This document shows positions 4,142-37,108 of a stretch of 64,000 nucleotides of DNA, piece by piece. Positions within the stretch are counted from its first letter, which is position 1, and the number at the start of each line of letters is the position of its first letter. Made by a program: the position numbers and the translations under genes. The notes beneath the pieces were generated by a model. The model was not told the origin of the DNA, searched no databases, and saw only the letters and a program-made list of their open reading frames with translations. The DNA lies in the NCBI GenBank assembly GCA_012520575.1, contig JAAYOB010000015.1, positions 49,426 to 113,425 of the forward strand, written 5' to 3'. Origin of the DNA: Candidatus Stramentimicrobium fermentans. GTDB taxonomy: Bacteria > Atribacterota > Phoenicimicrobiia > Phoenicimicrobiales > Stramentimicrobiaceae.

Positions 4142-4204
4142 CCGATTTCCTGCAAAGTAAGATGTTTATTTCTCCATAAATCGAGAACAAATAGACAGCA
4201 AACA

Positions 4205-4390
4205 CGTTTAAGCAGGTCTCCTGACTCGCGTATCATAAGCTCTCCGCACTGTCTTCTCAGGATTGCTCCCAATGACTGACTTTCGTCGCGTGCGGTGCCT
4301 CCACGCATACAGTGGCGGTACCGTCCCGGATTTTAACCGGGTTCACTATTCTCCACCAATTCCTGTCAAAATTGGTGACACTTAAACGGT
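4205..4390 (-). promoter_or_regulatory. cobalamin riboswitch upstream of cbiK operon
   Basis: Minus-strand sequence contains the B12-box hallmarks: the GCCACTG element (plus-strand CAGTGGC near 4309-4315), a conserved run around 4325-4350, and AGTCAGGAGACCTGC (complement of 4213-4227) at the 3' side of the aptamer. Order and spacing fit the AdoCbl-type riboswitch class. A promoter lies just upstream and an attenuator just downstream, so the cbiK operon should be switched off when cobalamin is plentiful. Confidence 0.95.
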
Positions 4391-4412
4391 GTATTCTATT
4401 CAACTGTCATTT

Positions 4413-4787: not shown

Positions 4788-4819
4788 AAAAAAAATAAAT
4801 ATCGAATATTAAATTTTAC

Positions 4820-4955
4820 AGATCACGGAAGCTGTTGAGAATACAGCACAGCCCCGCTACTGTGATAAGGGACTGATTGGACATAGGCCACTGAAGCAAT
4901 TCGGGAAGGCGTCATAATCGGGATGATCTTTAAGTCAGGAGACGGTCTATAAAAT
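4820..4955 (+). promoter_or_regulatory. cobalamin riboswitch (short form)
   Basis: Shows CACAGCCCCGCTACTGTGAT early, GGCCACTGAAGC (4887-4898), a CGGGAAGGCG segment and the closing AAGTCAGGAGACGG (4931-4944). These are the conserved B12-riboswitch blocks in order; the peripheral stem is shorter than in the minus-strand copy. An attenuator follows at 5009, so it should repress the binding-protein/permease/ATPase operon when cobalamin is abundant. Confidence 0.92.
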
Positions 4956-5008
4956 TCAAAATGGCTTACTTCGAGGGAGGTAGGTGCTTTTTTTTGTGCG
5001 CTTTTAAA

Positions 5009-17504: not shown

Positions 17505-17690
17505 AAAGAGTGTAACGGGTTCCCAACAGGCAGGTCTCCTGGCTTGAGGCTGTCTAATTGCTGCGCCTTCCCAAAACTTTTGTTCCAGTGGCGTTATGCA
17601 GCTTTCGGTACCTTTTACAGTAACGGGCTTGCGGTGGATTTGCACCACACTTCCCTTAACCTGTCAGGATAATATATTCAGTTTTCAATC
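17505..17690 (-). promoter_or_regulatory. cobalamin riboswitch upstream of btuFCD
   Basis: Minus-strand B12 elements: TGACAGGTTAAGGGAAG near the 5' side, the GTGGTGCAAATCCACCGCAAGCCC-type block around 17627-17655, GCCACTGGAAC (complement of 17583-17593) and AGCCAGGAGACCTGCCTG (complement of 17530-17547). It ends about 70 bases before btuF; no strong attenuator is visible, so control may be translational. Confidence 0.93.
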
Positions 17691-30949: not shown

Positions 30950-30987
30950 AGCAGTCCTTAGGGGGAACCCTCCCCCTAAGGACTGCT
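30950..30987. repeat. perfect 17-bp inverted repeat between convergent genes
   Basis: Arms 30950-30966 and 30971-30987 are exact reverse complements, G/C-rich, around the loop ACCC. It lies between the converging addA and selenoprotein genes. Neither strand has a T-run after the stem; on the plus strand the T-run precedes it. It may act as a two-way transcription barrier or 3'-end stabiliser rather than an ordinary intrinsic terminator. Confidence 0.85.
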
Positions 30988-30997
30988 ACATACGTTA

Positions 30998-31306
30998 TTA
31001 GCAGCAGCTGTCGTAAGAATCCCAATTCTGATAATAGACTCGAAAACCTTTTGAAAATAAGTAGCTCTTGTAATCAATAGTCAAATGTTTGATAGAATCA
31101 ACTAATTTTTGATGCAAGATAATTTCCAGATCGTCTACATTTAAGCTTATATCATCTTCTTTTTGCTCATCCAGAGCAATGCCAAGTCTGGGACCGCCTC
31201 AGCCAATACCGGTTATTAACACACGGATTTTTTTATCAGATGATTCCTGCTCCTGCAGCATATTCTTCAACTGTTCAGCTGCTTTTTCAGTAATATTTAT
31301 TTCCAC
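30998..31306 (-). CDS. IscA/HesB-like selenoprotein (in-frame UGA)
   Basis: A 102-residue protein of the HesB/IscA-like family, whose members bind iron or Fe-S clusters. GTG start at 31306 lies 7 bases after AAGGAG. The frame reads through one TGA (31199-31201, residue 36) in VLITGIG-U-GGPRLGIALDE, exactly where relatives have the conserved cysteine of GxGCGGPxLG. The remainder, DDISLNVDDLEIILHQKLVD and HLTIDYKSYLFSKGFRVYYQ, matches the family, and it ends with a Cys-Cys pair. A hairpin with G-G in its loop follows the TGA at a distance usual for a bacterial SECIS. HesB-like selenoproteins are a known bacterial group, and tRNA-Sec, selA, selB and selD lie within 6 kb. A sense-codon-only reading truncates it at residue 35. 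Confidence 0.9.
31171..31191 (-). promoter_or_regulatory. candidate SECIS hairpin of the HesB-like selenoprotein
   Basis: Minus strand CCAGA (31191-31187) pairs with TCTGG (31175-31171), extendable by C-G across a one-base bulge, leaving a loop with TTGGCATT. The apical G-G is about 15-20 bases after the UGA, within the range for bacterial SECIS elements. Stem is short, so confidence is moderate. Confidence 0.55.
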
Positions 31307-31368
31307 TTTCTTGCTCCTTATCATTACTTTTAACTTAGCACTACATAATAGTAATTGATTTCCAATAT

Positions 31369-31397
31369 ATCATAACAGGAAAAAGCATAATGTCAAC
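31369..31397 (-). promoter_or_regulatory. promoter of the HesB-like selenoprotein gene
   Basis: On the minus strand TTGACA (complement of 31392-31397), a 17-base spacer and TATGAT (complement of 31369-31374), about 60 bases before the GTG start. Confidence 0.7.
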
Positions 31398-31719: not shown

Positions 31720-32376
31720 ATGAAAAAAAAGAAAAACTACTTAGTAATTCTTATTATCCTCTTAATTTCTTTGCTGATGAGCGGATGCGCAGTCCCCTTC
31801 TTTTCAGGAAACGAACCGGTATACATAATTTCCAAACCGGTCAAAATTGCAGTTGTTGGAAATCCTTATAGTTATCAGGTTGTAGTAGAAGATGATGGAA
31901 AAACGGAATTGACCTTCAGTCTCACTGTTGCTCCGGAAGGAATGGAAATTAACAGAGGAACCGGATTAATAAATTGGACACCGACTGCCGAACAGATGGG
32001 AGAACATGAGGTAGGTATAGTAGTGAGAGATGGCTGGTACATGGATACACAGAATTATTCTCTTACGGTAAGCACAAAACAGTTGAGTTCAATTACTGTA
32101 ATTCCTTCCAGCATGTCTTTTACTAAAGCTGGTGATACAAAAACAATAACATCTATTACTGCTAAATATAATGATGGTTCCAGTAAGACAGTCGATAAAG
32201 CCGCTTGCACTTTCGTATCTAACAATCCCAGTATTGCCACAGTCGATACAGCAGGTAAGGTAACGTCTAAAGCAAAAGGGAATACCACCATTACCGTCAG
32301 CTATACCGATAATGGTATAACTGAGAGTGCCAAAATTGCTATTACTGTTACTATTGCACCCACCGGCGGTGGCTGA
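31720..32376 (+). CDS. lipoprotein with Ig-like (He_PIG and Big_2) domains
   Basis: A 218-residue surface lipoprotein: signal with lipobox M-S-G-C near residue 24, a putative-Ig domain (PVKIAVVGNPYSYQVVVEDD ... GMEINRGTGLINWTPTAEQ, residues about 40-115) and a bacterial Ig-like group 2 domain (ITVIPSSMSFTKAGDTKTI ... SIATVDTAGKVTSKAKGNTT, residues about 120-210). A good GGAGGGAGG site precedes the ATG. Such domains mediate adhesion or serve as spacers. It ends in a short glycine tail, so no further catalytic domain is present. Confidence 0.9.
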   Translation: MKKKKNYLVILIILLISLLMSGCAVPFFSGNEPVYIISKPVKIAVVGNPYSYQVVVEDDGKTELTFSLTVAPEGMEINRGTGLINWTPTAEQMGEHEVGIVVRDGWYMDTQNYSLTVSTKQLSSITVIPSSMSFTKAGDTKTITSITAKYNDGSSKTVDKAACTFVSNNPSIATVDTAGKVTSKAKGNTTITVSYTDNGITESAKIAITVTIAPTGGG

Positions 32377-32432
32377 CGTAGGTAATAAACCTGATAGTTT
32401 ATCAGGTATGAAAAACTATATTATAACAGGGT

Positions 32433-32528
32433 GGGAGTGGATAGGTTCTGGTGGACCTTGCGGACTTCAAATCCGTGGGCGGTAATTTATCATTACCGCG
32501 GTGGGTTCGATTCCCACCCCTCTCGCCA
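32433..32528 (+). tRNA. selC: tRNA-Sec (anticodon TCA)
   Basis: A 96-base class II-like tRNA with genomically encoded CCA. Anticodon arm GCGGA-CTTCAAA-TCCGT carries TCA, reading UGA. Sec-specific features: a 6-bp D stem (AGGTTC/GGACCT) with a 4-base loop and a long variable arm with an 8-bp stem (GCGGTAAT/ATTACCGC). T arm is GTGGG-TTCGATT-CCCAC. The 8-base acceptor side GGGAGTGG appears to have one T-C mismatch against the 3' strand. It sits directly upstream of selA-selB-selD and is followed by a terminator hairpin. Confidence 0.96.
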
Positions 32529-32713: not shown

Positions 32714-34144
32714 TTGGAAAAGAATCGTAAAGATAACCGTACAAACAATATGCATATTCAATTAGCTCAGCTTCCCAGTGTGGAGGAAGTTTTACAACAA
32801 GAAGAGCTGCGCTTATTAAGCGGCCGTTACTCTCGAAGAATGATTACCCCTCTGGTCAGAGAAGTGTTGGCGGAAGAGAGAAAAAGAATCAGAGCCGGCG
32901 CTCTGCCCCCAACAATTTTCGATATCATAAAGAGCTGCACTACTTTAATCGAACAAGAATATCAATCCCTGATTAAGCCTGTTATTAACGGAACAGGGGT
33001 AGTTTTGCATACCAATTTAGGCAGAGCAGCCTTAGGACAGACCTTGTTTGACGATGCACTGCCTGCTTTAACCGGCTTTAATAATTTAGAATATAATCTT
33101 TGGGATGGGCAACGGGGTAAAAGGGGAGAATTTGTAGAGAAGATGCTGTCAGTTTTTAGCGGGGCGGAAAATGCCCTTATCCTTAACAATAATGCTGCTG
33201 CTGTTTTTCTTATCTTAAAGGTATTGGCTAAAGATAAAGAGGTCATTATCTCCAGAGGCGAGCTGGTACAAATAGGCGGCGGATTCCGCATTCCGGATAT
33301 TTTACGGGAAAGCGGAGCTATACTCCGGGAAGTAGGGACTACCAACCAGACTACTATAACTGATTATCATGATGCCATTACTGAAAATACAGGTTTAATC
33401 CTGAAAGTCCATCAGAGTAATTTTGCTTTGGAAGGTTTTACCCGGTCGGTTGATATTAAAGAATTAAAAATATTGGGGAAAAAATATAAATTACCAGTAG
33501 TGGCAGACCTGGGCAGCGGTGCTTTTCTGCAGACTGAGCAGTTTGCTTTAGCCCATGAACCCATGGTGCAGGAAATGGTACGGAGTGATGCCGATTTAGT
33601 CTGCTTCAGTACCGATAAATTATTAGGCGGTCCCCAGGGCGGAATTATTTGCGGGAAATCAGAGTATATTAACCGAATCAGAAAAGACCCTCTCTATCGT
33701 ACCTTTCGGGTAGGTAAACTTACCCTATGCCTGCTGCAATCCACCATATTATACTATTTACAGGAAAGAGCTATAGAAGATTTACCGCTCTGGAGAATGA
33801 TCTCTGTTCCTGCCGAAGATATTAAAAAAAGATGTATGCGTTTAGCTCGCAGCTTAAAAAAGAGAGGGATTCCTGCCTATATCAGTGAGGGAGTATCTCT
33901 TATCGGCGGCGGTTCCTTACCGGGGAAGACCTTGCCTACCTATCTCTTAGGTCTTAAAATAGAGAAAGATGTAGCAGAATTAGATAAAAGATTAAGATTA
34001 TCCGATCCTGCCGTTTTAGGGAGAGTAAAGGATGGACATTTATTCTTTGACCCCAGAACAATCGAACCCCATTATGACAAAAAATTAGTGGAACTCATTC
34101 AATCTGCCTTTTATCAGAAATATAATGAAGAAGAGGTCAGATAA
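32714..34144 (+). CDS. selA: L-seryl-tRNA(Sec) selenium transferase
   Basis: PLP enzyme converting seryl-tRNA(Sec) to selenocysteinyl-tRNA(Sec) with selenophosphate. Length 476 is standard. N-terminal LPSVEEVLQQEELRLLSGRY and NGTGVVLHTNLGRAALG are SelA-specific; the PLP lysine lies in FSTDKLLGGPQGGIICG near residue 300. Start is TTG at 32714; AAAGAGGAG is about 10 bases upstream. It begins the selA-selB-selD operon, selB starting 6 bases after its stop. Confidence 0.97.
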   Translation: MEKNRKDNRTNNMHIQLAQLPSVEEVLQQEELRLLSGRYSRRMITPLVREVLAEERKRIRAGALPPTIFDIIKSCTTLIEQEYQSLIKPVINGTGVVLHTNLGRAALGQTLFDDALPALTGFNNLEYNLWDGQRGKRGEFVEKMLSVFSGAENALILNNNAAAVFLILKVLAKDKEVIISRGELVQIGGGFRIPDILRESGAILREVGTTNQTTITDYHDAITENTGLILKVHQSNFALEGFTRSVDIKELKILGKKYKLPVVADLGSGAFLQTEQFALAHEPMVQEMVRSDADLVCFSTDKLLGGPQGGIICGKSEYINRIRKDPLYRTFRVGKLTLCLLQSTILYYLQERAIEDLPLWRMISVPAEDIKKRCMRLARSLKKRGIPAYISEGVSLIGGGSLPGKTLPTYLLGLKIEKDVAELDKRLRLSDPAVLGRVKDGHLFFDPRTIEPHYDKKLVELIQSAFYQKYNEEEVR

Positions 34145-34150
34145 TTTGCT

Positions 34151-36019
34151 ATGGTTATTTTTGGTACTGCCGGACATATCGACCATGGAAAGACCAGCGT
34201 CATTCAGGGACTAACCGGTATCGATGCCGATCGCCTGCCGGAGGAAAAATCGAGAGGCTTGACTATTGACCTCGGATTTGCCTGGCTGGAAACCACCCGG
34301 GGCGAAAAAATAGGAATAATCGATGTGCCGGGCCACGAAAATTATATTCGCAATATGATTACCGGTATAACCACTGTAGATGCCTTTCTGTTAGTCGTTG
34401 ATGGCAAAGAAGGATGGATGCCTCAAACGGAAGAGCATTTTCAGATTATCAGATTATTAGATATCAATTATGGCTTGGTAATTATTACCAAAACAGATTT
34501 AGCCTCACCGGAGCGTATAGCAGAAACGGAACAGCAAATAAAAGATAAGATTACCGGTATAAATAAGTTTAATATTCCTATTCTTAAGTTCAGTATTAAT
34601 GATAAAGATAGTATAGATCTGTTAAGGCATGAGGTAGAGAGTGTCAGCAGTCTCATTCCCCTTAAAAAAGACCTTAACAAACCCCGTCTTTTTGTGGACC
34701 GGGTTTTTGAGATAAAGGGGAGCGGTACCGTAGTTACCGGAACATTACTTGATGGGAATTTGTATCAGAATCAATCAGCAACACTTTTTCCATCAAAAAA
34801 AACGATTCGCATCAGACAGATACAAAGCTATAATGATTCGGTAGAAAAAGCGATTTTAGGCAGCCGGGTAGCGCTAAATCTTTCCGGTATCAAAAAAGAA
34901 GAAGTTCGGAGAGGGGATTTGATTTCCGGTCTCAAAGCACTTCCTTCGGGGAATTTTCTGGATGTCTCTTTCGCCCTTCTCTCCCGGGAGAATCCTTTTC
35001 GTCTGAAAAATGGTACTGAAGTCGAATTTATTTCACATACTAAAATTTTGAGAGGGACTATTATCTTCTCACAAAAAGAAATGTTGTCCGGGGAAAAATC
35101 TTATGTCCAGCTGCGCTTTAAAGAACCGCTCTGGCTCATAATAGGTGATCACTTTATTATCAGACTGCCAGGCTCCAATGAGACCATAGGTGGCGGAAGA
35201 GTGCTCGCTCTGCAGGAGGATAAGCATAGTTTTCATAATCCTTATTGGGAAAAATGGCTGGAAAGCAGGTCTAAACTGGACATTAACTCACTTATCCTCA
35301 GTGAATTAGAGAAATATAAGACTATCAAAAAAGGCCTCTTGTTATTGAACAGCCCTTTTTCTCAAGTAGAAATCTATCAGCATTTGGATAATTTAAACGA
35401 GAATAGCAGCCTGTTCTTAATTGATGACCGGGTGGTGAATAATCAATTCTGGAATGAATTAATCAGCCGAGTCTTAGCTAATTTAAAACAGAAGCACAGT
35501 GATTATCCTCTAAAAAAGGGATTTCCTTCAATACAGCTGAAAAATGAATTGCCCGGTTTGTCAGAAGAACTGTTTGATAATTTATTAAAATATTTGGTGG
35601 AAGAAAATAGTATAGCAGTGAAGGATGGAATGGTTTCTTTGTTCGAACATACTATTGAACTGACGGAATCAGAAGAGAAAGTGAGAGAGGAAATTTTGCA
35701 ATATCTCAATGAGAACATCAACAGCCTGCCCACCGAGAAGGAGTTGCAAAATGTTTTTTCCAAAAATATAGAGATGATTAACTACTTAAAAGAGATGGGA
35801 GAAGTTATAAAATTAGCAGATGATATCTGTCTGACACCGGCAATATATGAAAATATGAAAGATGAAATCGTAGCTTTTTTAAAAAAGAATAAATCTATCA
35901 CTATTGGCCAGGTCCGTGATTTGCTGCATATCAGTCGAAAATATATTGTACCGCTCTTGACCAGAATGGACGAAGAGGGTATAACCAAAAGAATTGGCAA
36001 TGAGAGAACATTATGCTAA
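34151..36019 (+). CDS. selB: selenocysteine-specific elongation factor
   Basis: GTPase delivering Sec-tRNA to UGA codons that are followed by a SECIS. G1 GTAGHIDHGKTSVIQ at residues 5-19, G3 DVPGHENYIRNM, G4 TKTDL. EF-Tu-like domains 2 and 3 follow (FEIKGSGTVVTGTLLDGNLY), and the C-terminal region from about residue 370 has four winged-helix-type repeats that bind SECIS, ending IGQVRDLLHISRKYIVPLLTRMDE. Length 622 agrees with bacterial SelB. Confidence 0.97.
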   Translation: MVIFGTAGHIDHGKTSVIQGLTGIDADRLPEEKSRGLTIDLGFAWLETTRGEKIGIIDVPGHENYIRNMITGITTVDAFLLVVDGKEGWMPQTEEHFQIIRLLDINYGLVIITKTDLASPERIAETEQQIKDKITGINKFNIPILKFSINDKDSIDLLRHEVESVSSLIPLKKDLNKPRLFVDRVFEIKGSGTVVTGTLLDGNLYQNQSATLFPSKKTIRIRQIQSYNDSVEKAILGSRVALNLSGIKKEEVRRGDLISGLKALPSGNFLDVSFALLSRENPFRLKNGTEVEFISHTKILRGTIIFSQKEMLSGEKSYVQLRFKEPLWLIIGDHFIIRLPGSNETIGGGRVLALQEDKHSFHNPYWEKWLESRSKLDINSLILSELEKYKTIKKGLLLLNSPFSQVEIYQHLDNLNENSSLFLIDDRVVNNQFWNELISRVLANLKQKHSDYPLKKGFPSIQLKNELPGLSEELFDNLLKYLVEENSIAVKDGMVSLFEHTIELTESEEKVREEILQYLNENINSLPTEKELQNVFSKNIEMINYLKEMGEVIKLADDICLTPAIYENMKDEIVAFLKKNKSITIGQVRDLLHISRKYIVPLLTRMDEEGITKRIGNERTLC

Positions 36020-36055: not shown

Positions 36056-37108
36056 ATGTCCGATAAGAAAGACAATAAGAAGAGATTAATGCAGCTCGTT
36101 ACAGCGGCAGGGTGAGCGGCTAAATGGAGCTATCAGGACCTCGGTGAGGTTCTTAAAAAGATGAATCAAATTTCAGACCATAATTTATTAAGCAGTTTTG
36201 AAAACAATGAAGATGCAGCGGTATACCGTATCAATAGCGATACGGCCATTATCTTTACTACCGACTTTATCACTCCTGTCGTGAACGATCCATTTACCTT
36301 TGGCCAGATTGCTGCTGCCAATGCTTTAAGTGACGTTTTCGCCATGGGCGGCAGGCCCTTAATGGCTTTAAATATCGTCTGCTTTCCTGAAAATAGATTA
36401 GAAGAGTTAGAAAAAATTGTTAGCGGTGGGCTGCAAAAGGTAAAAGAAGCCGGAGCAATATTGGTGGGGGGACATAGCCTGAAAGATTCTGAGCCCAAAT
36501 ACGGTCTAGCAGTCGTGGGGCTAGTGCATCCGGATAAAGTAATCTGCAATAATAATTGTCAGGAGGGAGATAGAATAATATTAACAAAGCCACTGGGAAC
36601 CGGTATTATCTCCACCGCTTTAAAGAGTGAATATTTATCCGAAAATGAAGCTCAGGAAGCAATAGGCTGGATGTCAAAACTCAATGCTGTTTCCGATGAT
36701 ATTTTAAATTTGGCTATAAACAGTATGACCGATATTACCGGATATGGTTTTCTGGGACACCTCAGTGAAATGGTCCAGGGCAGTGATGTCGGTGCAGATA
36801 TTGAGGTTGATAAAATTCCCTTGTTAGCAAATACTGTTGGGCTTGCTCAGGAAGGAGTTATACCAGGGGGAAGTTTCGCTAATCAGGAAATATTCTCCTG
36901 CGGGGTGGAAAAGAAAATTGAGCTGGAACCGGCCAAAGAGATAACACTTTACGATGCTCAAACCTCAGGCGGATTACTCATCTCCATTGCCCAAAGAGAT
37001 GTCGAGCAGGCACTGGACTTGTTGCACAAGGAAGGATTCACTGAAAGCAGTGTGATTGGCAAGATTAGAAAGATAAATATAAATGAGAGAAGAATAAGCC
37101 TGATATAG
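36056..37108 (+). CDS. selD: selenophosphate synthetase, selenocysteine-containing
   Basis: Makes selenophosphate from selenide and ATP. ATG at 36056 follows GAGGGGG; the frame reads MSDKKDNKKRLMQLVTAAG, then TGA at 36113-36115 (residue 20), then AAKWSYQDLGEVL. In SelD this residue is the catalytic Cys or Sec of the (C/U)xxK motif, so the UGA is Sec, and K23 is in place. ATG codons after the UGA would give a truncated protein lacking the active site. Downstream ATP-site motifs: TTDFITPVVNDPFTFGQIAA, FAMGGRPLMALNIVCFP, VGGHSLKDSEPKYGLAVVG and DITGYGFLGHLSEM. Total about 350 residues. Confidence 0.97.
36113..36153 (+). promoter_or_regulatory. UGA codon and SECIS hairpin of selD
   Basis: After the TGA (36113-36115), GGACCTC (36136-36142) pairs with GAGGTTC (36146-36152), extendable by an A-T pair, with apical loop GGT. 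The loop lies about 27 bases after the UGA. A short stem capped by a G-G-T loop is the standard bacterial SECIS form recognised by SelB. Confidence 0.88.

Follow-up and report, generated by a model that had tools for sequence, protein, structure and literature searches.

Does a frame that is interrupted by one TGA encode a complete selenoprotein of the IscA/HesB type or a broken gene and, if it is complete, what is the role of the protein? This question is raised by a gene, hereafter hesB-U, carried by a 64-kb stretch of DNA (the window) from a 1.58-Mb Atribacterota assembly (50 contigs, 98% complete). Taken as a whole, the evidence makes it very probable that hesB-U encodes a HesB-like selenoprotein in which selenocysteine (Sec) takes the place of the first conserved ligand Cys and which most likely binds Fe or an Fe-S cluster. 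The features discussed are listed in Table 1.

Table 1. Features of the hesB-U locus, with positions in the window.
Feature	Position	Strand	Remarks
hesB-like selenoprotein gene (hesB-U)	30998-31306	minus	102 aa; GTG start, TAA stop; Sec at residue 36
C-terminal Cys101-Cys102 codons and stop	30998-31006	minus	last Cys kept in 14/15 aligned genes
Bacterial SECIS hairpin TTGCTC-TGGAT-GAGCAA	31163-31179	minus	loop 25 nt after UGA; assigned from conservation and published rules
In-frame TGA read as Sec, UxGP motif	31199-31201	minus	codon 36; TGA in 15/15 aligned genes
Shine-Dalgarno AAGGAG	31314-31319	minus	7 nt before GTG; same in L007
Sigma-70-like promoter candidate TTGACA-16-TATGAT	31369-31396	minus	pattern match only
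Ig-like (He_PIG + Big_2) lipoprotein gene	31720-32376	plus	conserved neighbour of hesB-U and sel cluster
tRNA-Sec	32432-32527	plus	anticodon TCA
selA, selenocysteine synthase	32714-34144	plus	PF03841
selB, Sec-specific elongation factor	34151-36019	plus	PF09106, PF09107
selD, selenophosphate synthetase	36056-37108	plus	in-frame TGA 36113-36115; hairpin GACCTC-GGT-GAGGTT

The interrupted frame and its hairpin

The GTG start (31306), the AAGGAG site, the single in-frame TGA (31201-31199) and the TAA stop (31000-30998, minus strand) were located, the first three exactly as proposed in the original prediction. With the TGA read as U, the translation is VEINITEKAAEQLKNMLQEQESSDKKIRVLITGIGUGGPRLGIALDEQKEDDISLNVDDLEIILHQKLVDSIKHLTIDYKSYLFSKGFRVYYQNWDSYDSCC. 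The GTG start is considered right because of the spacing of AAGGAG, because the closest relative (L007) also has a GTG start after AAGGAG and because the other relatives have an ATG start at or adjoining the same place. The upstream promoter that had been claimed does exist as a sequence (11/12 consensus matches, extended -10 TG); it is suggestive only, since five promoter-like sites were found, of which it is the best, against 4.5 expected by chance. With ordinary gene calling, just a 35-aa open frame before the TGA would remain; genes of this kind are therefore easily left out of genomes in Atribacterota, a mostly uncultured phylum.

Between the convergent ends of hesB-U and a UvrD-like helicase gene lies an inverted repeat (30950-30987) of 17 bp, which is perfect and has a 4-base loop. 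It is followed by no run of T, has no second copy within the 64-kb window and is possibly a bidirectional transcription barrier.

Under the ordinary code the frame contains a stop codon, as would an IscA-like gene disrupted by a nonsense mutation. This reading is very improbable and is refuted by conservation. The gene was found in 13 of the 50 Atribacterota genomes searched (own genome included), and all 13 matches include exactly one stop, a TGA, and no other; no Cys form was found among them. A TGA at the same codon is also found in loci from three Clostridia-type genomes (a Peptoclostridium MAG, Thermohalobacter and Caloranaerobacter), so that the same TGA recurs across two phyla; in an alignment of 15 genes it occupies one column without exception. 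(The loci L002 and L012 belong to the same contig, that of Candidatus Atribacteria bacterium UBA6251, from the same order as the window's genome, which places the window in Atribacterota.) The frame is conserved both upstream and downstream of the TGA in relatives, in agreement with the continuous HesB-like protein initially described. For most pairs compared in this alignment, dN is well below dS both before and after the TGA (window versus L007: dN 0.10/dS 0.70 upstream, dN 0.20/dS 1.69 downstream); the evidence is weak in a few short upstream comparisons (L013 versus L016: dN 0.21, dS 0.25 over 35 codons).

One Syntrophus MAG carries a shortened copy (L006, G053:C9:37407-37568) that encodes Trp (TGG) at the Sec position and is apparently decayed; the same genome also has an intact UGA-bearing HesB-like gene.

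A hairpin with G-G in its loop had also been predicted after the UGA. It consists of a 6-bp stem (31179-31174 / 31168-31163) and a UGGAU loop (31173-31169), and reaches -7.6 kcal/mol (z = -2.2) when folded alone. It agrees with all four published bSECIS rules (loop of 3-9 nt; G in the first two loop positions; 16-37 nt from the UGA; MFE of -7.5 or lower). The case for it is made by nucleotide conservation, whereas the whole 52-nt stretch, when folded, displays no excess stability (z = 0); the stem hardly varies, which makes covariation unusable. Across the 15 aligned genes the hairpin core GCTCTGGATGAG is free of synonymous change, in contrast to the conserved codons around it, which vary. Residues +8 to +11 after Sec (ALDE) are encoded by GCT CTG GAT GAG in 15/15 genes, although CTG and GAG represent 22% and 36% of their synonymous sets here, whereas several codons are used for the conserved residues G+2, P+3 and D+16. 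At least in part, then, the ALDE motif of the peptide serves as an RNA signal. In a wider set, the same four codons are found in all UGA-bearing genes seen but one (L076, GAC for GAT). The window contains a single copy of the 13-mer GCTCTGGATGAGC.

A Cys-containing HesB-like paralogue (L052, G057:C13) has GCT CTG GAT GAT and retains most of the SECIS hairpin bases; from its sequence, this looks like a SECIS remnant. It adjoins a gene that resembles, by eye, a formate dehydrogenase gene, and its genome also carries a TGA copy. A remnant SECIS in a Cys HesB-like protein has been reported (PMC1794560).

Selenocysteine genes and their linkage to hesB-U

The Sec machinery announced at 1-6 kb was recovered there: tRNA-Sec, selA, selB and selD are all encoded on the plus strand, between 32432 and 37108. 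The selD gene itself encodes a selenoprotein. The CUC..GG..GAG apex of its hairpin matches that of the hesB-U SECIS, at almost the same distance from the UGA. The selD genes of the window and of 11 other Atribacterota loci all contain a UGA with GAYCTC-GGK-GAGRTY downstream, its GG at nearly the same distance.

Sec genes are present in all 13 Atribacterota genomes that carry hesB-U; in 12 of them a tRNA-Sec exceeds the gathering score, and in the 13th selB and selD are found on the same contig. No Atribacterota genome devoid of Sec genes was found to carry hesB-U (Fisher p = 8e-8, phylogeny not corrected). Six Sec-positive genomes have no detectable hesB-U (G004, G037, G041, G042, G044, G047), an absence that is not certain as these are drafts, 76-94% complete.

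These data also bear on plain readthrough or a reading of the UGA as Trp or another amino acid. Nothing specific speaks for it, apart from the Trp at this site in the decayed Syntrophus paralogue; the strict co-occurrence of the gene with Sec genes and the apical motif shared by its SECIS and that of selD speak against it. Readthrough and reassignment, even less probable than a nonsense mutation, are rejected on conservation and co-occurrence. Insertion of Sec at UGA codon 36 is, on sequence grounds, regarded as practically certain, because the TGA is found in 15/15 genes, purifying selection acts on both sides of it, the SECIS is invariant and the gene co-occurs with Sec genes. SelB loaded with Sec-tRNA would recognise the UGGAU hairpin 25 nt downstream and insert Sec at this codon.

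Linkage of hesB-U to the sel cluster is found in all ten Atribacterota genomes whose contigs permit the test, with two gene orders; contig ends prevent it in three others (G006, G007, G002). In family f1 (window, L030, L031), hesB-U and the lipoprotein gene are divergent, and tRNA-Sec, selA, selB and selD come after the latter. In family f2 (L032-L035), all genes are on one strand in the order tRNA-Sec, selA, selB, selD, lipoprotein, hesB-U. The contigs of L041 and L043 begin inside selB, with the order selB, selD, lipoprotein, hesB-U; in L042, hesB-U directly follows selD. The Ig-like lipoprotein gene, single here and sometimes in two copies, neighbours the sel cluster and hesB-U in almost every Atribacterota genome that carries hesB-U. 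It is kept beside selA and selD in the Sec-positive genome G004, in which hesB-U was not detected, and had no match in 26 genomes outside the window's order. The linkage of hesB-U to the sel cluster and this lipoprotein gene in Atribacterota appears undescribed so far. In the library of papers searched, selenoproteins or selenocysteine are nowhere mentioned together with Atribacter-, so hesB-U is a new member in a phylum for which that library does not describe the family.

Two other observations concern the window and the searches. Three cobalamin riboswitches are found in this one 64-kb window (4194-4400, 4802-4965, 17512-17679). A search of a phage collection gave one weak match, in a 3.6-kb unannotated record.

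Fold and possible roles of the protein

The protein scores 33.3 against PF01521 (Fe-S_biosyn; gathering score 26.3), and its PDB relatives detected by profile are IscA, HI1723 and AQ_1857. In the alignment with HI1723, a solved IscA-type protein, Cys occupies the position of Sec36. The AlphaFold2 model (pLDDT 84.9) matches IscA and SufA at TM about 0.6-0.75; the predicted fold is that of IscA/SufA. Residues 98-102 form a disordered tail (pLDDT below 50), and the model does not permit Cys101-102 to be placed near Sec36. Among chalcogen residues, Sec36 and the terminal Cys are the conserved ones; two adjacent Cys are present here (C101-C102) and one in relatives, except for a relative of the same genus (L009), which has no terminal Cys.

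A profile search of the genome gave one A-type protein (hesB-U) and one protein with a NifU/IscU N-terminal domain. SufB/D, present in 14/14 control genomes, was not found by profile search of this 98% complete assembly. That hesB-U encodes the only A-type protein found in a genome with IscU but no SufB/D is a detail that appears undescribed so far. The protein would hold iron or a small Fe-S cluster at the contact of its subunits, with Sec36 and the C-terminal Cys as ligands; IscU is the only other Fe-S scaffold found in this anaerobe. As the simplest reading, it can be inferred that this A-type protein binds Fe or Fe-S in an anaerobe with ISC only, Sec being a softer and more reactive ligand. 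Of the original proposal that Sec replaces Cys at an Fe-S carrier site, the alignment bears out the replacement at the first-ligand Cys; the function as an Fe or Fe-S carrier is a matter of inference, with about an even chance of being right. Disruption of the hesB-like gene of Methanococcus maripaludis gave a viable mutant with unimpaired nitrogen fixation (PMC11097638), a result that lends no support to an essential Fe-S role in this archaeon.

A selenoprotein that is no Fe-S carrier, one whose Sec and terminal Cys make up a site for redox chemistry or metal handling or which serves selenium supply (reduced-selenium carrier for SelD, or Sec-status sensor), is possible but unlikely. It draws on the sel-cluster linkage in all ten testable Atribacterota genomes under two gene orders, on the loss of the CxC end of IscA and on the Clostridia-type loci inspected, in which the gene has no common neighbourhood partner, of Fe-S biogenesis or otherwise. 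On the other hand, the fold is that of IscA, and no sel genes were found in the flanks examined of the Clostridia-type homologs L003-L005; the linkage is thus local to Atribacterota and may be simple co-regulation. More doubtful still is the narrower proposal that in Atribacterota hesB-U belongs functionally to the sel cluster and is devoted to selenium supply or Sec homeostasis (e.g. a selenide carrier or sensor acting with SelD), perhaps with the Ig-like lipoprotein, rather than to general Fe-S assembly. The sel linkage and the absence of another A-type protein give a concrete lead on the function of HesB-like selenoproteins.

Comparison with known systems

The gene almost certainly encodes a HesB-like selenoprotein of the IscA/HesB (A-type) superfamily. 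HesB-like selenoproteins have been listed as a selenoprotein family (PMC1794560, 2006, 11 members; PMC9312934; PMC13188914), with the UxGP motif given in PMC13188914. The existence of such proteins in bacteria, taken as established in the original prediction, has indeed been known for about twenty years, and the family is widespread. As in this literature family, Sec is found at the conserved first Cys with UxGP, a bacterial SECIS lies downstream and selA, selB, selD and tRNA-Sec are in the genome.

Two NCBIfam models exist for the family, TIGR01911 (HesB_rel_seleno) and NF038090 (IscA_HesB_Se); its A-type fold, Sec at the first ligand position, UxGP and bacterial SECIS are shared by the protein described here. 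The differences are that hesB-U is beside the sel cluster and that its product scores below both curated cut-offs (NF038090, 73.8 vs 85 bits; TIGR01911, 45.1 vs 66.35 bits). The NF038090 model has matches in 103 of 398 genomes of the phylum of Thermohalobacter, many with one TGA, so the family is common; since no match in these 398 genomes reached the cut-off, this cut-off excludes many TGA-bearing relatives. The tail is also short here, with one or two terminal Cys, and not Gly/Cys-rich as in L045, L057 and L070.

The M. maripaludis HesB-like protein (MMJJ_08070) is a selenoprotein proven by 75Se labelling, with an unclear function (PMC11097638). The likeness to this protein is one of family name. 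Being archaeal, it uses an archaeal SECIS.

IscA, SufA and ErpA of Escherichia coli share the fold and the aligned first ligand Cys. They have a three-Cys ligand set and no Sec. The protein described here has U36 and C101-C102 instead of three Cys with a C-terminal CxC, and its scores are far below the equivalog cut-offs (IscA, 22 vs 151; SufA, 28 vs 136; ErpA, 49 vs 117 bits). It is a well-supported new example of a known family in a little-studied phylum, not a new kind of protein.
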